DNA of 64,000 nucleotides from Spirometra erinaceieuropaei (taxonomy: Eukaryota; Platyhelminthes; Cestoda; Diphyllobothriidea; Diphyllobothriidae). The stretch's first letter is position 1, and every line of letters begins with the position of its first letter. Where the stretch lies: the NCBI GenBank assembly GCA_902702965.1, contig CACRXP010000564.1, positions 37,013-101,012 on the forward strand. Reading direction: 5' to 3'. This document shows, piece after piece, positions 1,380-63,935 of the stretch. The notes beneath the pieces were generated by a model. That model was not told the DNA's origin. It made no database searches and was given only the letters and a program-made list of their open reading frames with translations. A program made the translations under genes and the position numbers.

Positions 1380-1490
1380 CGCTTGACGACCAAAGACCAT
1401 GGGTTCGAATTACAGGTTCTGCATACTTCGTATTGAGTAAGGTCGATTGACTACGGTTAATAAGCCAGAAGATGGCCGTTCCACTCATCC
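1380..1490 (+). repeat. HR1 repeat remnant (decayed)
   Basis: The stretch keeps the order of an HR1 repeat: a B-box-like GGGTTCGAATTAC near 1400, then GACTACGGTTAATAAGCC and a diverged copy of the GAAATGGCCATTCC block near 1470-1485. The hammerhead core is broken: CTGANGA has become TTGACTA and an extra base interrupts GAAA. It is an old, inactive relative of the intact copies at 7.5, 25 and 55 kb. Confidence 0.55.
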
Positions 1491-4634: not shown

Positions 4635-4935
4635 TCTAACCTAAATATGAATTATTCCAAATCTGCCAAAATATCTATGAATTACGTGAGCCTAGTAGTC
4701 ATCTGGTGGATTCTAGGTGAATTACTTAGGAAATCCTACTTGGGCAGTCAACTTACTGTATCAGATTTGGTGGATTCCAGACGTTGTAGTAGGTTGGGCG
4801 GGTAACTTGACCCAAATGTGATTAAACTCGCGTCATCCAGCGGGGCCTCGTAGCTCAGGTGATTAGAGCGTTGGCTGTACTAAGGCCTTCCCCTTAATGC
4901 GTGGGTTCGAATCCCACCGAGTTTTTCACAGTTGG
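4635..4935 (+). repeat. SINE-A: tRNA-containing repeat
   Basis: A body beginning with TCTGCCAAAATATCTATGAA is followed at 4845-4921 by a tRNA-like module. The module has an A box (TAGCTCAGGTGATTAGAG), a B box (GGGTTCGAATCCC), a GCCTC/GAGGC-type acceptor match in the copy at 63.6 kb, and an expanded variable region as in class II tRNAs. Body plus tRNA recur at 30.4-30.8 kb and, inverted, at 63.6-63.9 kb. A tRNA module at the 3' side is unusual for a SINE, so the repeat may really be a circularly permuted or tandem unit. The tRNA isotype is not clear. A telomere-like tract follows directly. Confidence 0.75.
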
Positions 4936-7340: not shown

Positions 7341-7557
7341 CGGTAGAGGGGGGCGCTCAACAATCGTTCTTACGGAACTCACTCGTTCCGTTGTGCCTAA
7401 CGGGCTCTATCTCTCGAGCCCAACCAGCAGCCACAGAGCGGCGCATGACATAGGCAGTATGTTATTACTGACAAAGACAAGGGAGACTGGAATGGCCATT
7501 TCTGGCTAATTAACTGTCGTCAGCCAGTCATACCCAGACCCGAGGTGTGGAACAACC
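7341..7557 (-). mobile_element. HR1 repeat, minus-strand partial copy
   Basis: Read on the minus strand it contains the hammerhead block (7485-7529), then CTCCCTTGTCTTTGTCAGT, then the GCGCCGCT/CTGCTGGTTGGGCTCGAGA/GGAACGAGTGAG 3' part. The tRNA-like head is missing beyond its last bases near 7557. It abuts a plus-strand HR1 copy at 7561, making an inverted pair. A TA-rich microsatellite lies on its other side. Confidence 0.8.
7485..7529 (-). ncRNA. Hammerhead ribozyme motif, HR1 type
   Basis: On the minus strand the 45 nt read: stem I GACTGG, core CTGACGA, stem II hairpin, GAAA, palindromic stem III ATGGCCAT, cleavage-site T, stem I CCAGTC. Here stem II is weakened (CAGTTAATTAGCCA). The conserved hammerhead core CUGANGA...GAAA and a perfect 6-bp stem I are present. 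Activity is not shown. Confidence 0.65.
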
Positions 7558-7639
7558 GGGGCGAGTGAGTTCCGTAAGAATGATTAGCGATCATCCCCTC
7601 TACCGTCGTATATTCCCGATCGAAAATCGACAGGGCAAC

Positions 7640-7703
7640 GGGCTCGTGGCCCGGTGGGTAGAGACGTGGACTTCTATCAAAAAGGTCGCGAGTTCGAGCC
7701 TCG
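7640..7703 (+). promoter_or_regulatory. tRNA-like internal RNA polymerase III promoter of HR1
   Basis: A-box-like TGGCCCGGTGGGTAGAG (TGGCTCAGTGGTTAGAG in the 40.3-kb copy) and B-box-like GTCGCGAGTTCGAGCC at tRNA spacing. It cannot fold as a functional tRNA: the anticodon arm is disrupted and the 3' acceptor strand is absent. It is best read as a tRNA-derived promoter. Confidence 0.65.
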
Positions 7704-7730
7704 GGTGTGCCACACTTCGGGCTTGGGCAT

Positions 7731-7775
7731 GGCTGGCTGACGACGGCTAATAAGCCAGAAATGGTCATTCCAGTC
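7731..7775 (+). ncRNA. Hammerhead ribozyme motif, HR1 type
   Basis: Stem I GGCTGG (7731-7736), core CTGACGA (7737-7743), stem II C-GGCT-AATA-AGCC-A (7744-7757), GAAA (7758-7761), stem III ATGGTCAT overlapping the last A, cleavage-site T at 7769, stem I CCAGTC (7770-7775). Stem I pairs with one G-U. The first stem II pair (10.1/11.1) is C with A instead of the usual G-C, which would lower activity. Stem III has no loop, so a dimer would be needed, as reported for hammerheads of PLEs and retrozymes. Confidence 0.7.
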
Positions 7776-7920
7776 TCCCTTGTCTTTGCCGGTTATATCA
7801 TTCTGCCTATATATCATGCGCCGCTGTGAGGCTGCTGGTTGGGCTCGAGAGAGAGTCCATAAGGCACAACGGAACGAGTGAGTTCCGTATGAACGATCGG
7901 TGAGCGCCCCATAACATTAT

Positions 7921-8034
7921 ATATATATATAACTCGGTCCATGAATTCGCCCCATCTTCTTCTTCGTCTTCTTCGGGGGATGATGACCGGGATATATATA
8001 TATATATATATATCTATATATATATATATATTAC
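7921..8034. repeat. (TA)n tracts flanking HR1 and PLE1
   Basis: Two TA microsatellites (7917-7932 and 7991-8031) surround a short spacer containing CTTCTTCTTCGTCTTCTTC. Similar TA tracts border nearly every HR1 or PLE1 block. Confidence 0.8.
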
Positions 8035-8060
8035 ATGAGCAGCTCGCTAAGAGTGCAACA

Positions 8061-8117
8061 GGCCAGACGCAGACAGCTGTTTCACGGTCGTTACCGATCA
8101 TCAGTACGTCATAGGCC
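8061..8117 (-). ncRNA. Hammerhead ribozyme motif, PLE1 pseudo-LTR type
   Basis: On the minus strand: outer helix GGCC, then GACGTA, core CTGATGA, stem II T-CGGT-AACG-ACCG-T, GAAA, palindromic stem III ACAGCTGT, cleavage-site C, TGCGTC, outer GGCC. GACGTA pairs with TGCGTC over 6 bp (one G-U), and the outer GGCC strands also pair, giving a long stem I. The first pair of stem II is U with U. Position and order fit a type I hammerhead with a minimal stem III. Confidence 0.7.
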
Positions 8118-8137
8118 TTATGAAGTGAGGTATATAA

Positions 8138-8227
8138 GCATGTTAAGTGGGCGTTTGACCCTCACTGTTGTGGGATCGAGTGACATCCTAACCACAACAG
8201 TGAGGGTCAAACGCCCACTCAACATGC
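8138..8227. repeat. 36-bp inverted repeat with 18-nt loop
   Basis: Arms 8138-8173 and 8192-8227 are complementary with one mismatch. A looser version of the same inverted repeat occurs in the PLE1 copy at 23.6-23.73 kb (GTGTGACCCTCA against TGAGGATCACAC), so the foldback is a property of the PLE1 end and not a local accident. Confidence 0.85.
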
Positions 8228-8335
8228 ATATATATATATATATAGATATTGAAAATAAGTAGAATTATTTGTGAAGAATCTTACCTATTTTCATTTAAAT
8301 TTCTTGGGATGCCTGTTTTCCGGCACATATGTATA

Positions 8336-23764: not shown

Positions 23765-23822
23765 GGCCAATGATATATTGATGGTCGGCAACAACCGAAA
23801 AACAGCTGTCTGCGCCTAGCCT
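23765..23822 (+). ncRNA. Hammerhead-like motif, PLE1 type (decayed)
   Basis: GGCC, then TTGATGG in place of CTGATGA, stem II CGG/CCG, GAAAA, intact palindrome ACAGCTGT, C, TGCGCC. The core carries two changes and stem I no longer pairs, so it should be inactive. It fixes the position of the motif relative to the endonuclease. Confidence 0.5.
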
Positions 23823-23912
23823 GTGGCAATCCTAATAAGCTTCTTACCTATTATATATATATATTGGAAGGTAGGCATCCCAAGAAATATAAGTTGAAGG
23901 CAGAGCCGTTCT

Positions 23913-24440
23913 TTGGGAAAAGGTACTTTATTGCCTGAATTTTCGACGCCAAATACATGGCGAACCCTCCCTTACATCAAAAACGTGTCTGAACTCGTGG
24001 AAAGGCACCTAAAGAGACACCAGATTCGGGTGGCACACAGACCGACGACTACACTACGTACTCAGATAGTACATCCTAAGGATAGGGTCGACTATTTGGA
24101 TAGAAAGGAAGTCGTCTACAAGATCCCATGTGAGGCCTGTGATGCAGTTTATTGTGGTCAAACAGGAAAATCCGCCTCTACACGCATTCACGAACACCAA
24201 CTTGCAGTAAAGAGGCGAGACCACCTGTCTCAAGTAGCCATGCATAGCTTGGACACCGGGCATACGTTTGCTTGGGACAGAACACGGATTGTCGGTGCGT
24301 GCCCCTTCAAGAAAGGCCGAGAGTTCCTTGAGGCCATGCACTCGGATGAATCGTGCATCAACCGTCACATCGAGTTGGACGCCGCGTACAAAAGTCTCAA
24401 GGAGAAATGGAAGAGACGAGAGCCAATCGGGACGGAATGA
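23913..24440 (+). pseudogene. PLE1 GIY-YIG endonuclease C-terminal fragment
   Basis: An intact 175-codon frame with the layout of the Penelope endonuclease: linker TLRTQIVHPKDRVDYL (residues 48-62), VYKIPC (68-73) as the GIY strand, paired Cys 73 and 76, YCGQTG (80-85) as the YIG strand, TRIHEH with Arg91 and Glu94, His111 and His117 of HSLDTGH, GREFLEA (135-141) and INRHIEL with Asn150. Such a domain nicks target DNA to prime reverse transcription. The frame opens with TTG and has no ATG before the domain; the reverse transcriptase is missing, so it is a fragment rather than a complete gene. No frameshift or stop breaks the domain, so it is relatively young. Confidence 0.85.
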
Positions 24441-24603
24441 CGCAAATAGCGGCCGCTCACGGGCGCAAACGCGAACGATTATCGATTTTTTCATGTGCAC
24501 TGCCAGATGTTAACTGTTTTTGGCACATTTACTTTCAGTCTGCGTCTGACGACGACCTGGGGAACCGGCGTCGAAAATTCACGCAATATATATATATATA
24601 TAT

Positions 24604-24660
24604 ATGCAGAATGATATTACCGACAAAGACAAGGGAGACTGGAATGGCCATTTCTGGCCC
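24604..24660 (-). mobile_element. HR1 fragment between two (TA)n tracts
   Basis: Minus-strand segment from the stem I/stem III half of the hammerhead (GACTGGAATGGCCATTTCTG on the plus strand) through CTTGTCTTTGTCGGTAATAT. TA tracts at 24583-24604 and 24666-24684 bound it exactly. Confidence 0.75.
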
Positions 24661-24866
24661 CCTAACATATATATATATATATAATATGACAGTTGGGCGT
24701 TCACCGATCAGGTTACAGAACATGCTCGTTCTGTTGTGCCTTGGGGCTCATACTTAAACCCTCGCAGGCAGTCACACAGCGGCTAGTGATATATGTTGAG
24801 CGTTAAACTCCATGACCAAAGATCCCGGGTTCGAATCTCAAATGATCCACACTTGGGGTTCGGTAT

Positions 24867-24911
24867 GACTGGCTGATGACGGCTAATAAGCCAGAAATGG
24901 CCATTCCGGTC
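24867..24911 (+). ncRNA. Hammerhead ribozyme motif, HR1 type
   Basis: Stem I GACTGG/CCGGTC (one U-G), core CTGATGA at 24873-24879, stem II C-GGCT-AATA-AGCC-A, GAAA, palindrome ATGGCCAT, cleavage-site T at 24905. The core matches the classical CUGAUGA exactly. The C/A mismatch opens stem II. Confidence 0.75.
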
Positions 24912-25073
24912 TCCCTTGACTTTGTCGGTATCACCTTATCAACATATATATATGTAATAATAGGGGGCGCTCACCGATCGTTCTCACGGAACTCACTGTC
25001 TCTCGAGTCCAACCAGCAGCCGCACAGCGGCGCATGATATAGGCAGAATGGCATTACCGACAAACACAAGGGA

Positions 25074-25118
25074 GACTGGAATGGCCATTTCTGGCTTATT
25101 AACCGTCATCAGCCAGTC
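25074..25118 (-). ncRNA. Hammerhead ribozyme motif, HR1 type (best copy)
   Basis: On the minus strand: GACTGG, CTGATGA, C-GGTT-AATA-AGCC-A, GAAA, ATGGCCAT, T, CCAGTC. All six stem I pairs are Watson-Crick and the core is classical CUGAUGA. The C/A mismatch at the base of stem II is the only departure. Confidence 0.75.
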
Positions 25119-25145
25119 ATCCCCAACTCCGAAGTGTGGAACAAG

Positions 25146-31285: not shown

Positions 31286-32035
31286 GGTAACGGTCGGGGG
31301 ATGGCACCCAAAAAAATTCCGCCTAACCAAATCAGCCTGTCTTACGGGACAGGTTTTATTAGGGGTTTTATGAGTGGTGGCTGGTGGGGATGTACAAACT
31401 AGCCGACAGAAAGCCTTATTTGAACAGGTGAATGATCGAATTTGGCCCGCTCTCCGTTCCGTTGTTACAAAATGGGTCGCCAAAGGCAGTATAGTGGTAA
31501 CGGACGAGTGGAAGGCGTATAATCGTCTTCCTTCAGAAGGTTATCTACATTTCTCTGTTAACCACACAAAGAACTTCAAGAACCCTATCACCGGACGGCA
31601 CACCAATGCCATTAAGACATACTGGAGTAGACTGAAAAGGAAACGCCACGAGGGAGGCCCTGTATGTGGTCGAGCTGTGTGGCCTCACATAGACGACGTA
31701 CAGTATCCTCTTTGGTTTGGCCTCAATGCCATGTCTTTGACAGATGCCTGGGAACTGTTCCTGTCCCATGCTGTGCAGACTTGTTCTATTTAAAAGTGCT
31801 TTTGTTTTGTAATACACTGCCATAATGCGAATGTATGCCGTATATTCAGGTGTACGTGTGCAACGATGGGGAAGGTTGGGCAACTGCGACCGTCGTCCAT
31901 GTTAGGCCGTCGGGGAATGTCCAAGTAGTGCGTGAAAGTAGGCCCCCAGCCGCTGATATAGCCTGAAGGTGTTTATTTCTAAGCGTATTATTTCTAGGTA
32001 ACGGATTTTTTGGGTGCCATGTCACGATTGTTGCC
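31286..32035 (+). mobile_element. Merlin-superfamily DNA element, 750 bp
   Basis: Terminal inverted repeats: left GGTAACGGTCGGGGGATGGC (31286 on), right complement GGCAACAATCGTGACATGGC (32035 back), both followed by ACCCAAAAAA. The flanks are a perfect 8-bp duplication, GAAAAGTA, at 31278-31285 and 32036-32043. Merlin elements make 8-9 bp duplications. The ends match those of the element at 60668-61629. A transposase remnant lies inside. The length is well below that of an autonomous Merlin, and the N-terminal coding half is missing. Confidence 0.9.
31374..31793 (+). pseudogene. Merlin transposase, C-terminal half
   Basis: IS1016/ISXO2-like DDE domain: AGGDVQTSR (residues 3-11), ALFEQVNDR (14-22), then VVTDEWKAYNRL with the second catalytic Asp at about 43, SVNHTKNFKNPITGRHTNAI and YWSRLKRK. 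Where family members have an acidic residue (HTxxIE...W) this copy reads HTNAIK, so the third catalytic residue looks lost. The frame opens with GTG right after a TGA that stands where a Trp is expected, and the N-terminal part with the first Asp is absent. It ends well before the right terminal repeat. It would cut and rejoin DNA if complete; as it stands it should be inactive. Confidence 0.85.
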
Positions 32036-38099: not shown

Positions 38100-38950
38100 G
38101 CGGAAATAAGGACCGCCGCACTACAGGTGATATCGCGCTAAATTCCAGGAGGGTACCTATTACCGTGCTTCAATTTTAACACTGACCCCCACTATTTTAA
38201 CCATAACACCAACGCTAACCCTCTAGACGCTGTTAATAGAAGCGAAAATGTGAGTTCTAGGAAGTTGTCGTGAAGGAGGAGACACGGTCAATGGAACAAG
38301 AGCTTTATTAACCCCAAATTTCGGGTTCTTACTCGAATTCATCATCAGAGACAGAGACAGATTATTCTGGACACGGATGACTGAGCACGCAACAGCAGAG
38401 AGGAGGAACGACGCCAGTTCCTAAGTCACCTCATTCGACGGGACCCGACCACACATTTACGTGTGACAACGCAGAAATTCTCGCTAGAGGCGACAACCAA
38501 TTGGGTCGCGAACTGCTTGAGTCAGAGTTTCCCGGTCTTCAATCAATCAACAAGCGCAACGACATACTTGCTCCATATTCGGCACTGAGACTTTGATTAC
38601 GCGAAGTGCTTAGCCATGAGGAGAACGTGCGGATGAGCCCAATTTCTCAGGACCCTCAGGGATGACGTAGTCCGGCAGTCAGTAACTCGATTGCATACGA
38701 TGGGCGTGAGAGCCGATAATCTGTACCGGCACACAGGCGCATAGCAATTATATACTCCATTACCTGGTCAGTCGAACGCTGCCAACTGTGATAGACGTGT
38801 AGCGGCCTAGCAACTGCACCCTATAAATACTGCAACACATGGGCAATTTACTATCCTTAGCTGACTCTGTCTCTGATGGTGGATTCGAGCGAGAATCAGA
38901 AACGTCCGGCTAATGAGGCTCTTTTTCTAGCGATCGTGTCTCCTTCTTGG
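38100..38950. repeat. I repeat, inverted arms around a 500-bp core
   Basis: Left 38275-38360 and right 38865-38945 are diverged inverted copies (GTCTCTGATG.TG.ATTCGAG, GAGACACG). 38115-38150 matches 62375-62410 (CTACAGGTGRYATCG, CTAAATTCCAGGAGG). The right arm matches 62590-62650. The GATGATGG/GTGG...GAAAC arm motif is of a kind seen near the ends of Penelope-like and related retroelements. Confidence 0.6.
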
Positions 38951-39782: not shown

Positions 39783-39825
39783 TTTTCAAAAGCTCTGCCT
39801 ATATCCCCTATATATACATATATAA

Positions 39826-40110
39826 TGGTAGAGGGGGACGCTCATCGATCGTTTGTAGGGAACTCACTCGTCCTATTGTGCCTTACGGGCTCTCTCTCGA
39901 GTTCAACCAGCAGTCGCACAGCGGCGATTGATATAGGCAAAATGGTATTGCCAAAAAAGACAAGGAAGACTGGAATGGCCATTTCTGGCTTATTAGCCGT
40001 CGTCAGCCAGTCATACCCGACTCATAAGTGTGAAACACCCGAGGCTCAAACTCGCGACCTGTTAGTTAGAAGTCCACGCCTCTAAACGCTAAGCCACAGG
40101 CCCGTTGTCC
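39826..40110 (-). mobile_element. HR1 copy, minus strand, near complete
   Basis: On the minus strand: tRNA-like head (starts at GGACAACGGG near 40110; A box and B box at 40040-40100), hammerhead at 39968-40012, CTTGTCTTTTTTGGCAATAC, GCCGCTGTGCGACTGC, end segment at 39826-39870. It abuts a plus-strand HR1 at the tRNA end. A short TA tract lies beyond 39825. Confidence 0.8.
39968..40012 (-). ncRNA. Hammerhead ribozyme motif, HR1 type
   Basis: Minus strand: GACTGG, CTGACGA, C-GGCT-AATA-AGCC-A, GAAA, ATGGCCAT, T, CCAGTC. All stem I pairs and the stem II helix are intact apart from the C/A opposition at the base of stem II. Confidence 0.75.
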
Positions 40111-40446
40111 TTATCGGTAATACTATTCTGTCTATATCATGCGCCGCTGTGCGTCTGCTGGTTGAACTCGAGAAGGAATGCCCTAAGGCACAACAGAACG
40201 AGTGAGACCCGTAGAAACGATCGGTGGGCGCTCCTTTACCATTATTACTCTCGATCGCAACCGACAGGACAACGGGCTCGTGGCTCAGTGGTTAGAGGCG
40301 TTGCACTTCTAACTAACAGGTCGCGAGTTCGAGCCCCAGATGTTCCACATTTCGGGATTGGGTATGACTTGCTTACGACGGCTAACAAGTCAGAAATGGT
40401 CATTCTTGTTTCCCTTGTCTTTGTCGGTAATACCATTCTGTCTAAA
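40111..40446 (+). mobile_element. HR1 copy, permuted head-to-tail
   Basis: Starts inside a unit (CGGTAATACTATTCTGTCTA), runs through the 3' part and end segment, then CGATCG spacer, tRNA-like head (40270-40335: TGGCTCAGTGGTTAGAGGC and GGTCGCGAGTTCGAGCCCC), a decayed hammerhead (40367-40411) and back to CGGTAATACCATTCTGTCTA. The repeated phrase sets a period of 310 bp. Confidence 0.8.
40367..40411 (+). ncRNA. Hammerhead motif, HR1 type (decayed)
   Basis: CTTACGA replaces CTGACGA, so G5 of the core is lost. Stem I GACTTG/CTTGTT is weak. GAAA and ATGGTCAT remain. Expected to be inactive. Confidence 0.5.
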
Positions 40447-40750
40447 TAAATATATACTAAATTAATAAGGAGGGTCCATATTCCAATGCCATAAGGCTTC
40501 TTATCATAGAATGCATCGGGAATCATTTTCTTACCCACACGCAGGCAAGGGCCTGCGTAAAGATAGGTGTTTCGTCTACACATCTCATGAAAATGGATCG
40601 CATGCACGACAACAAGCAAACGGCTGCGCTGGGCATTACTTCCAACTTCTGTCAGTTTATCTGGTATTTTAAAGAAGGGGCGGAAGATGAGAACCCACCC
40701 AGTGATTATGAGCTCCTGATAGGAACAGAGATTAGAGCCCCACTCGCCAC

Positions 40751-43000: not shown

Positions 43001-43625
43001 TCAAAAACTCACACAAGATTCCTCAGCAAGGGAATATGAAGTGGAAAGTGGGGGGAGGGGGCGGAGAAAGTCCACACGTCAGATATAAAATCCACAATGC
43101 CAGAACATCAAGAACCCATTGTGGAATAAAGACAGTTTTGAAAATAATTTTGTGAATATCTAGTCAATCAGACAGTCTGCGCGATAAGTGTCCCCCTCCT
43201 AAAATCCGCTTACATGGGAAGGAGGAGACAGAGAGAGAGAGAGAGGAAAGATGGTTTTCTCCGGGAGGGGGGGGAGTGCCCACGCATTGGTGTGATAAGC
43301 AAATGATAAACTGACTTCAAAAACTCACACAAGATTCCTCCGCAAGGGAATATGAAGTGGAAAGTGGGGGGAGGGGGCGGAGAAAGTCCACACGTCAGTT
43401 AAAAAACCAGAACATCAAGAACCCATTGTGGAATAAAGTCAGTTTTGAACATAATTTTGTGAATAAGTAGTCACTCAGACGGTCTGCGCGATAAGTGTCC
43501 CCCTCCTAAAATCCGCTTCCATGGGAAGGAGGAGACAGAGAGAGAGAGGAAAGATGGTTTTCTCTGGGAGGGGGGGGGGAGAGTGGTCACGCATTAGAGT
43601 GATAAGCAAATGATAAACTGACTTC
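43001..43625 (+). repeat. Recent tandem duplication, about 310 bp x 2
   Basis: 43001-43316 and 43317-43625 both run from TCAAAAACTCACACAAGATT to GCAAATGATAAACTGACTTC. They differ by small indels in GA and G runs and a deletion near TAAAATCCACAATG. High identity marks a young event. No frame is conserved. Confidence 0.95.
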
Positions 43626-44649: not shown

Positions 44650-44977
44650 TACGAAGTTGAAGTAGGCAAGAGCGGCAGAATTTATTGGTGGCAAAAAATT
44701 TCACGACTGCTCTTCAGCTGCATCCTGTCGCTTCATAAGAGAGATAACGAGTGAGAACATACAACAGATTTGAATTCGTACAGAAAATCGATTAGCCAGC
44801 TTTGACCAAAACCCTGACCTTGCTGTTTCTGCATTGATTTTCTGTACGAATTCAAATCTGTTGTATGTTCTCACTCGTTATCTCTCTTATGAAGCAACAG
44901 GATGCAGCTGAAGAGCAGTCGCGAAATTTTTTGGTACCAATAAATCCTGCCGTTCTTGCTTACTTCAACTTCAAGTA
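44650..44977. repeat. Long inverted repeat, arms about 140 bp, 46-bp loop
   Basis: 44650-44789 and 44836-44977 are inverted copies with only a few mismatches, e.g. GAACATACAACAGATTTGAA against its complement. As RNA or cruciform DNA it would form a long hairpin. The loop (44790-44835) is unrelated. The arm sequence is not seen elsewhere in the window. Confidence 0.9.
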
Positions 44978-46795: not shown

Positions 46796-46840
46796 GGTGC
46801 AGACGGCCGTTTCACGGCCATTGTCGATCGTCAGTACGCC
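46796..46840 (-). ncRNA. Hammerhead ribozyme motif, PLE1 type
   Basis: Minus strand: GGCGTA, core CTGACGA, stem II T-CGAC-AATG-GCCG-T, GAAA, palindrome ACGGCCGT, cleavage-site C, TGCACC. Stem I pairs 5 of 6. The palindrome differs from ACAGCTGT of the 8-kb copy by a symmetric pair of changes that preserves self-complementarity. Outer sequences GGCAC and GTGCC pair again further out. It lies upstream (minus strand) of the PLE1 endonuclease pieces, as at 23.8 kb. Confidence 0.65.
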
Positions 46841-48099: not shown

Positions 48100-48172
48100 C
48101 CTACTGACGAGCTGAACCCCTCGCAGTTGTGTCAGGCAACGACATAAGATCGGCGAAACACGCGTATCTGGG
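48100..48172 (+). ncRNA. Hammerhead ribozyme motif, S345 type
   Basis: Stem I CCTA (48100-48103) with TGGG (48169-48172), core CTGACGA (48104-48110), stem II GCTGA/TCGGC closed by the canonical G-C pair with a 35-nt loop, GAAA (48155-48158), near-palindromic ACACGCGTAT as stem III, cleavage-site C at 48168. Unlike the HR1 and PLE1 motifs, the base of stem II is canonical. The short stem I and the large loop II are its weak points. Confidence 0.6.
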
Positions 48173-55342: not shown

Positions 55343-55440
55343 ACACACCTCGGGATTGGGTATGGCTGGCTGACGACGGCTTATAAGTCAGAAATGGCCA
55401 TTCCAGCCTGCCTTTCCTTTGTAGCTAATACTTGTCTGCG
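55343..55440 (+). mobile_element. HR1 fragment with intact hammerhead
   Basis: CACACCTCGGGATTGGGTAT, hammerhead, CTGCCTTTCCTTTGTAGCTA. The tRNA-like head and 3' part are absent. Confidence 0.7.
55364..55408 (+). ncRNA. Hammerhead ribozyme motif, HR1 type, covarying stem I
   Basis: Stem I GGCTGG/CCAGCC: six Watson-Crick pairs with A-U of the other copies replaced by G-C. Core CTGACGA, stem II C-GGCT-TATA-AGTC-A, GAAA, ATGGCCAT, T. Confidence 0.75.
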
Positions 55441-62349: not shown

Positions 62350-62700
62350 TGTGCCACAACTGCCGAACCCCCACCATACTACAGGTGGCATCGTGCTAAA
62401 TTCCAGGAGGCGTCCATTTCCATGGCCATCAACGACTTTGACGCGGACTGACAAGCCACCATCGCACCAATTACGACCCCACGGTGATGATTGCGGGCGC
62501 TGCTAATTTATAGTACGCGCGTGGTACCACGCCAACTACGTACTACAAATACTGCATCCTTTGTGCCTCTACTACCTTTATCTGCAGCCGTCTCTGACGA
62601 TGGGTTCGAGTGAGAATCCGAAACATCAGGCCAATAAACCCCTTGTTCCAGTGATTGCATCCACTCATTACAAAACGATTTTGACTAAGAAGAGACCCTT
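62350..62700 (+). repeat. I repeat
   Basis: ACTACAGGTGGCATCGTGCT, AATTCCAGGAGG, ACAAATACTGCA, then CTCTGACGATGGGTTCGAG, GAATCCGAAACATCAGGCCA, AATAAACCCCTTGTTCCAG, matching 38.1-38.95 kb in parts. Confidence 0.6.
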
Positions 62701-63589: not shown

Positions 63590-63935
63590 AAGATTAAAGG
63601 AGAATTCACTTTGATCCAATTGTGAAAAACTCCGTGCCTCAGTGGGATTCGAACACACGACAGCAAGGGGGATGGCTTTCGTGTAGCAAACGCTCTAACC
63701 ACCTGAGCTACGAGGCCCCGCCGGACGACGCGAGTTTTATCACACTTGGGTCAAGTTAACAGCTCAGGCTACTGCAACGTCTGCAATCCACTAAATCTGA
63801 TACAGTAAGCTGACTACCCAAGCAGGATTTCCTGAGTAATCCACCAAGAATCCACCAGATGACTACCAGGCTCACGTAATTCATAGATGTTTTGGCAAAT
63901 TCGAATAACTCATTTTGAACCAACTGTGAAGCAGA
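63590..63935 (-). repeat. SINE-A, minus strand
   Basis: tRNA-like module at 63636-63716: on the minus strand GCCTCGTAGCTCAGGTGGTT, B box TGTTCGAATCCC, 3' GAGGC pairing the 5' GCCTC. A long variable region separates the anticodon and T arms. The body (ATCTATGAATTACGTGAGCC on the minus strand) lies at 63.73-63.91 kb. This is the best-preserved tRNA module of the family. Confidence 0.8.

Follow-up and report, generated by a model that had tools for sequence, protein, structure and literature searches.

Hammerhead-bearing repeats with a Penelope-like insertion anatomy in the tapeworm Spirometra erinaceieuropaei

Penelope-like elements with hammerheads are reportedly the subject of Cervera and de la Pena (2014) and Lunse et al. 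(2017). Several described systems stand close to the repeats analysed here. Published Penelope elements are described as having inverted pLTRs, an optional tail on one of them, duplications of 8-10 bp and AT-rich targets (PMC3846280). Their reverse transcription starts at two internal sites, both target strands are cut and extended, and a hammerhead lies near the start sites; in the Anolis element those sites sit in an AC-rich stem-loop not homologous to the target, and insertion is unchanged in hammerhead mutants (PMC11167929). In the assemblies of Spirometra and Sparganum, Penelope accounts for about 10% (PMC8166898). Animal retrozymes are described in one review as lacking a motif that would name an autonomous mover, and Penelope-like elements are suspected, as the two co-occur (PMC7761336). 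Retrozyme-like repeats have been reported in platyhelminths by a study that does not name tapeworms and that also describes the axolotl hammerhead HHR_Amex2, with U.U at its stem II base, as self-cleaving, more efficiently as a dimer (PMC7229834). Schistosomes carry Sm-alpha, a SINE-like repeat with a hammerhead that tRNA-Gln-related copies are said to resemble (PMC2770079), and W-elements, some of whose hammerhead motifs are reported to cleave and whose stem III is extremely short (PMC8490949).

We analysed a 64,000-nt stretch of the Spirometra erinaceieuropaei genome (the window) and found two families of hammerhead-bearing repeats, HR1 and HR2. Both are probably non-autonomous, retrozyme-like retroelements with predicted hammerheads, moved by Penelope-like machinery, and HR1 adds a tRNA-like head. 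The first-pass annotation of this DNA had described hammerhead motifs in one tRNA-headed repeat, likening it to Penelope elements, retrozymes and Sm-alpha. These parallels are supported and extend further than it proposed, to a Penelope-style insertion anatomy. That anatomy is the new part. Neither HR2 nor the double-armed insertions of either family appear in the earlier account.

A 45-nt hammerhead block occurs as seven HR1 copies in the window, five with core and stems intact. It reads GACTGG / CTGANGA / C-GGCT-AATA-AGCC-A / GAAA / TGGCCA / TT / CCAGTC, which is the spacing of a hammerhead. The five copies listed by the first-pass annotation and its sixth at 55364 are all present where it placed them, and its reading of the spacing was borne out. 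The stem I that it gave as common to the copies, GACTGG/CCAGTC, needs correction at 24867..24911 and 7731..7775. The former, on the plus strand, belongs to the young subfamily, has stem I GACTGG/CCGGTC and a predicted cleavage after 24905, and recurs letter for letter in 33 of 88 aligned motifs. The latter, also plus, has GGCTGG/CCAGTC. Core and stems are intact at 25074..25118 (minus; descriptor and model R1, both defined below), the top R1 score falls at 39968..40012 (minus), and 55364..55408 (plus) has a compensatory change in stem I, GGCTGG/CCAGCC. The copy at 7485..7529 (minus) is present as claimed, with a single broken pair in stem II. The seventh copy, 40366..40410 (plus), is matched by model R1, and its core has decayed to CTTACGA.

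These matches lie well above chance. The pattern CTGANGA...GAAA alone occurs 20 times in the window against 3.6 expected. A three-stem descriptor (core, stems I-III and UH site) gave six matches, five HR1 and one HR2, where 40 second-order Markov sequences, each 64 kb long, gave 0.125 on average. A looser descriptor gave eight sites against 0.13 expected from 30 first-order sequences: five HR1, one HR2 and weak sites at 48104 and 8826. The site at 48104 was considered as a third hammerhead candidate and rejected, its stem III being mispaired. Model R1 was built on the seven HR1 and three HR2 copies of the window, and its ten strong window matches are its own building set. It added one old, degraded HR1 copy at 1441..1485 (plus, 25.1 bits), and its nine remaining window matches are weaker, at E 0.027 or above. 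Across the 88 aligned motifs, the core is intact in 67 (CUGANGA...GAAA, A15.1-U16.1, H17 not G).

HR2 has the same hammerhead fold with different letters in all three stems. The copy at 8066..8110 (minus) reads GACGTA / CTGATGA / T-CGGT-AACG-ACCG-T / GAAA / CAGCTG / TC / TGCGTC, with stem I GACGTA/TGCGTC, stem II CGGT-AACG-ACCG, the palindrome ACAGCTGT and U.U at 10.1/11.1. In a second copy, 46796..46840 (minus), all three stems show compensatory changes and two pairs are broken; a third, 23772..23816 (plus; model R1), is decayed. Because HR2 has other letters in the same layout, it gives the hammerhead fold its strongest support. In the 10-sequence alignment of HR1 and HR2, 94.3% of cells are paired and both partners have changed in 9 of 14 pairs, for a covariation score of 0.559; structures slid along the same alignment reach at most 39.2% paired, 0-2 doubly changed pairs and a score of 0.103. 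Larger model-fitted sets, which favour the hammerhead structure by construction, have 93.0% of cells paired in 88 motifs (52 distinct) and 94.6% in the 150 best motifs (64 distinct) among 177 matches. In the 150-motif set, doubly changed cells number 117 against 36.6 in shuffles and the score also stands out, while doubly changed pairs show no excess (9 against a shuffle mean of 8.3). Inside HR1 only, covariation is weak, with one pair and equally high values in 135 of 500 shuffles. The covariation between HR1 and HR2 thus supports the fold proposed by the first-pass annotation, and judged by their letters the two families obey the same hammerhead rules, whether by common ancestry or convergence.

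The mismatch at the base of stem II, flagged earlier as a caveat, is real: positions 10.1/11.1 of the 88 motifs are C.A in 79, U.U in 4, U.A in 2, C.G in 1, A.A in 1 and a gap in 1. The hammerhead models of Rfam, proposed by the first-pass annotation as a check, were run and gave no hammerhead match in the window, nor in short stretches up to E = 10. Recognition by Rfam is a detection rule and not a defining feature of hammerheads, and a paired 10.1-11.1 is usual, not universal. The HR1 triplet, AUU, is a weak hammerhead cleavage triplet.

In HR1 and HR2 alike, stem III is a loop-free palindrome of four pairs, so cutting is expected only when two motifs pair, in two molecules or in tandem units. 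Computed energies agree with this layout for HR1. As monomers, the HR1 optima are -15.0 and -16.3 kcal/mol against -10.7 and -10.0 with stems I and II (4-6 apart), and the HR2 optimum is -15.5 against -8.1 kcal/mol (about 7 apart). As dimers, the HR1 optima of -40.5 and -44.1 kcal/mol correspond to a double hammerhead with additional pairing next to the core; the bare double-hammerhead form has -37.5 and -36.1 kcal/mol. The HR2 dimer optimum, in which stem II is shifted, is -38.5 kcal/mol against -30.1 for the hammerhead form. The modelled energies support the HR1 dimer, as the earlier reading of a dimer-favouring palindrome had it, and say nothing for catalysis.

The young HR1 unit is 309 nt long (reference L003:1468-1776) and that of the old subfamily 312 nt, close to the ~311 bp first given for the repeat. 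The motif occupies 106-150 of the young unit, with the predicted cut after 144. The HR2 unit is 232 nt, with the motif at 147-191 and the predicted cut after 185. The HR1 unit folds strongly on itself: its minimum free energy of -105 kcal/mol lies below each of 100 shuffles (z -2.9). In the HR1 leader, CCGACAGGACAACGGG (L003 unit 4-19) can pair with CCCTTGTCTTTGTCGG (152-167) just 3' of the hammerhead. The tRNA-like head and the motif lie within this pairing, which occurs in the computed unit fold.

The tRNA-like head and its putative Pol III promoter, both proposed earlier, drew mixed evidence. HR1 has an A box, TGGCTCAATGG, at unit 24 (24-34) and a B box, GGTTCGAATC, at unit 67. The Rfam tRNA model gave 20 bits on one HR1 head, under its 29-bit cut-off, and no match on two further heads; ARAGORN called no tRNA in 25 loci. 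The box matches stand and the tRNA models do not back them, so the tRNA-like head is weakly supported. No A or B box was found in the HR2 unit. Both HR1 reference units lack a TTTT run, which could let transcription continue from one tandem unit into the next. The copy with the 24867 motif begins at unit 34, and it therefore keeps the B box without a whole A box. A different tRNA-like repeat lies at 4660-4927 and 63633-63901, with 234-nt arms that are 88% complementary; there ARAGORN called tRNA-Ser and tRNA-Cys, and the Rfam tRNA model scored above its cut-off at 4844.

HR1 and HR2 insertions are built from arms. Units follow one another head to tail inside an arm, and two arms meet head to head. 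We searched an assembly of 758.7 Mb in 1932 contigs, in which copies are dispersed over many contigs, at least 44 matches for HR1 and at least 235 for HR2, counted in 40 scored candidates for each family, out of 413 and 1906 candidates, respectively. Of 41 HR1 loci found, 36 were kept; L001 (the window) and L006, L008, L010 and L013 (repeats, or the mirror copy on C808) were omitted. Of 47 HR2 loci, 39 were kept after omission of eight repeats (L044, L047, L051, L057, L058, L059, L064, L067); L050 and L079 resemble duplicates of each other and were both retained. Divergence of the hammerhead relative to the rest of the unit was not used, as the HR1 query covered mainly head and motif. Unit junctions are crossed by 31 of 73 mapped HR1 arms and by 45 of 78 HR2 arms, up to six times in the latter. 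Crossings were chained with slack of up to 12 (HR1) or 14 (HR2) letters, and 28 of 33 and 52 of 55, respectively, are exact to the letter.

Downstream of the hammerhead lie the two AT-rich sites at which arms end: A is about 44-46 nt past the predicted cut and B about 150-173 nt past it. Most head-to-head pairs use one of each. Among 22 HR1 pairs, 19 join A (157-193) to B (282-302), windows that were chosen after inspecting the ends; the rest are one A with A, one A with another end and one with two other ends. The 78 HR2 arms end 40 times at unit 231 and 28 times at 126, and 27 of 34 pairs are exactly 126 with 231, with four near and three not. Against independent choice, this use of one end of each kind has p about 4e-4 in HR1 and 2e-4 in HR2. 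End counts omit arms below 60 nt (HR1) or 50 nt (HR2), pairs were taken from arms spanning at least 55 nt in HR1 and of any length in HR2, and end positions are uncertain by several nt, the flanks being AT runs. By eye, no clear cluster of arm starts was seen at the predicted cut in the mapped HR1 and HR2 arms, and so the arms give no direct sign of cleavage.

Target duplications flank HR1 insertions. We took the 11 of 22 pairs without an (AT)n of at least 4 units, leaving out L024, whose AT-rich flanks share 14 nt, and L034, which has an N run, and compared outer flanks only. The nine testable insertions share 12, 12, 11, 9, 9, 6, 6, 6 and 4 nt, that is, 9-12 nt in five and 4-6 nt in four, and the maximum in 72 cross-locus control pairs is 7 nt. 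In the five, both arms clearly arrived together. For HR2, (AT)n adjoins 30 of 34 insertions; the four outside (AT)n share 9, 4, 5 and 4 nt, with a maximum of 8 in 12 cross pairs, and with just four insertions they carry no weight as a test. Adjacent tail-to-tail pairs number three in HR1 and none in the HR2 loci; the three resemble neighbours inserted into a single AT run.

The window shows this anatomy at several places. The region 24867..25118 given by the first-pass annotation spans parts of two insertions, a young plus arm and an older minus-strand copy, tail to tail. The plus arm of the young HR1 insertion spans 24795..24949 (unit 34-188), has a truncated tRNA-like head with the B box at about 24828, and ends at site A; the minus arm of the same insertion, 24677..24799 (unit 178-300), ends at site B. 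The older copy, 24950..25143 (minus, unit 81-299), also ends at B, and it meets the plus arm of the 24677-24949 pair in an (AT)n run. A further HR1 fragment lies at 24598..24658 (minus, unit 129-189, end at A). The head-to-head insertion at 39818..40448 has a minus arm, 39818-40117, ending at B and a plus arm, 40102-40260, crossing the junction into 40261-40448 and ending at A; this pair and 24677-24949 have one A and one B end each. The old pair at 7349..7924 (minus arm 7349-7558; plus arm 7549-7626 continuing into 7628-7924) has both ends near site B (unit 286 and 299), not one of each. HR2 forms a head-to-head insertion at 8026..8234, with a minus arm at 8026-8173 (unit 84-231) and a plus arm at 8171-8234 (unit 63-126).

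A Penelope-like element lies beside the young HR1 insertion. Its C-terminal reading frame at 23898..24440 (plus) has a GIY-YIG endonuclease fold, with no other family near GIY-YIG in a fold comparison, and its best relatives are in Spirometra, Sparganum and Schistocephalus (11 matches). An inverted copy of the element's 3' end, 23859..23950 (minus), stands head to head with the frame and ends at site B'. Reading by eye, we found a minimal Penelope-type hammerhead at 24541..24585 (plus), about 280 nt upstream of the HR1 motif and absent from the first-pass annotation: TGCGT / CTGACGA / C / GACCTGG-GGAA-CCGG(C)GTC / GAAA / AATT palindrome / C / ACGCA. Neither model R1 nor Rfam detected it. The element (23859-24588) has 26 genome matches at 90% identity or more, and site A' is the end point of 14 and site B' that of 11; this count omits five matches below 84% identity, L089 repeats the window, and 120 is the query end. 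Site A' lies 44-50 nt past the element's own predicted cut. Four of five complete head-to-head pairs have one A' and one B' end, while the window's own pair does not have one end of each kind. Judged by sequence, this GIY-YIG element has a layout like that of HR1 and HR2 insertions in the same genome. A second minimal Penelope-type hammerhead family occurs at 62588-62640 and 38288-38352 and at L044:1427-1460, with CTGACGA-T-GGGTTC-GAGTGA-GAATCC-GAAA; in L044 its stretch is GAAACGTC, with an ACGT palindrome as stem III, and like the 24541 motif it has a nucleotide bulged at 10.1.

A common mechanism would account for these features. Each HR1 or HR2 unit would encode a type I hammerhead that cuts when two motifs pair, and the HR1 head with its A and B boxes would be a probable Pol III promoter. 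A Penelope-like endonuclease, putatively acting in trans, would open an AT-rich target on both strands. Each target 3' end would then prime reverse transcription at one of the two fixed AT-rich sites, A or B, 3' of the hammerhead, and the two cDNAs would join head to head. Whether the putative template is circular or multimeric bears on a refinement of this mechanism, in which multimers are cut to monomers, a host ligase closes them and a Penelope-like reverse transcriptase copies the circle repeatedly to give multi-unit arms. We hold that refinement as a tentative possibility. That an insertion has one end of each kind while its arms still cross unit junctions fits a template on which A and B each occur once, and animal retrozymes are described as expressed as circles (PMC7229834). 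In L072, five HR2 units in a row show no difference (0/232), against a between-locus median of 1.7%. Those units equal the HR2 consensus, however, and 5 of 39 segments taken from other loci do too; identity alone therefore proves little. Two non-consensus letters common to successive units in L068 and L084 likewise recur in other loci. Unlike units share an arm in HR1 loci L004 (13 against 1 changes, p = 0.0018) and L034 (9 against 1, p = 0.02) and in HR2 loci L055 (22 differences), L050 (9), L086 (8) and L062 (6), the last unit of L072 and of L073 differs from the rest, and the published Penelope model requires just multimeric linear RNA (PMC11167929). Because of the unlike units inside some arms, we considered a pure circle template and did not adopt it. 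As a separate observation, the 3'-most unit differs from the alike units before it in L072, L073 and L004, as if copies had been added beside an older one.

Other readings keep the repeats and change the mover or the fold. HR1 might be an ordinary SINE of tRNA origin that a LINE (RTE-BovB or CR1) mobilises, with its inverted arms the result of twin priming, which is known in L1 and also yields such arms, and its hammerhead a vestige. Its tRNA-like head with A and B boxes would suit this, and SINEs, RTE-BovB and CR1 are described as abundant in Spirometra and Sparganum (PMC8166898). Yet HR2 has the same anatomy without the boxes, fixed and differing ends on the two arms are the rule, and the Penelope-like element, the one element covered by the end comparison, has like ends and hammerhead spacing; a LINE-moved SINE is therefore unlikely in our judgement. 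It is somewhat less improbable, though still doubtful, that the fold was inherited from an active ancestor and HR1 no longer cleaves, given its C.A at 10.1/11.1 and AUU triplet, with other hairpins kept instead. The hairpins GCCA-GAAA-TGGC and CTGGCT/AGCCAG do form in HR1. As conserved structures they were rejected, since 3 of 4 and 2 of 6 of their pairs, respectively, fail in the three window HR2 copies, where the hammerhead pairs hold better by the letters; the axolotl hammerhead, as described, cleaves despite its own stem II mismatch (PMC7229834). Satellite-like DNA amplification or an assembly artefact in place of retrotransposition would fit the HR2 tandem arrays, with up to six junctions. 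Dispersal over many contigs, target duplications and constant ends at dozens of loci disfavour it, and we rate it very improbable.

Movement by Penelope-like machinery, the reading we prefer, would give these repeats a wider meaning. Here hammerhead elements that are non-autonomous resemble a Penelope-like element of the same genome in how they are inserted and in the distance from hammerhead to end, which opens the question of what moves them to tests with Anolis PAc, a protein already purified elsewhere. The double-armed anatomy suggests the machinery that moves this kind of mobile RNA, and the neighbour of the hammerhead appears as the region where reverse transcription would start. Chances seem evenly poised that HR1 and HR2 are a missing link between animal retrozymes and Penelope elements, hammerhead-processed and possibly circular RNAs that a Penelope-like reverse transcriptase copies from two fixed sites, one for each DNA end, to give double-armed insertions, with HR1 a composite of SINE, retrozyme and Penelope parasite that acquired a Pol III promoter. 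In the literature searched, which leaves out most subscription papers, we found no hammerhead report for tapeworms, and a 16-nt piece of the motif had no match in the paper text searched. Judged against that literature, it is new that such elements bear a Penelope insertion signature, that a retrozyme-like unit has a tRNA-like head, and that they are described in a tapeworm. The window holds other repeats as well: a tandem duplication of period 307 at 43001-43625, HR1-like in size with no hammerhead match to model R1; an ISXO2-like DDE transposase fragment at 31374-31793 (Pfam DDE_Tnp_IS1595); and an inverted repeat at 44653-44972, whose two 140-nt arms are 94% complementary and 40 nt apart.

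HR1 and HR2 combine traits of several known systems. Like animal non-LTR retrozymes of coral, mussel and axolotl, as described, they have a type I hammerhead in tandem repeats of 150-450 bp, and the HR1 dimer fold parallels the dimer-favoured cleavage of some of these (PMC7229834, PMC7761336). The strongly self-paired unit of HR1 is shared with animal retrozymes, and the stem II base mismatch of both families with the axolotl Amex2 retrozyme (PMC7229834). Retrozymes are described as having no promoter and no motif that names an autonomous partner (PMC7761336), whereas HR1 has A and B boxes and both families bear a Penelope-like insertion signature. Animal retrozymes are described as expressed as circles (PMC7229834); for HR1 and HR2 the genomic signs of a circle are mixed.

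With Penelope-like elements, as published, they share a minimal hammerhead with a tiny stem III, two reverse transcription start sites (putative in HR1 and HR2) near it, a head-to-head inverted arm, a one-arm tail, an AT-rich target, duplications of about 10 nt and partial tandems (PMC3846280, PMC11167929). They differ in a stem III of four pairs, in units (309-312 and 232 nt) too short for a reverse transcriptase, and in a larger A-B distance, which is about 112 nt in HR1 and 127 nt in HR2 where the local Penelope-like element has about 28 nt. Their end sites are AT-rich, unlike the AC-rich stem-loop of the Anolis start sites (PMC11167929). Sm-alpha, Sj-alpha and W-elements are, like HR1, SINE-like hammerhead repeats of flatworms (PMC2770079, PMC8490949); that the Sm-alpha sequence differs is a statement of the first-pass annotation. 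Helenus TRIMs, as described, also place a tRNA-like promoter inside a short non-autonomous retroelement; they have LTRs, PBS and PPT and are thought to depend on LTR retrotransposons (PMC10886601), whereas the ends of HR1 are of the Penelope type.
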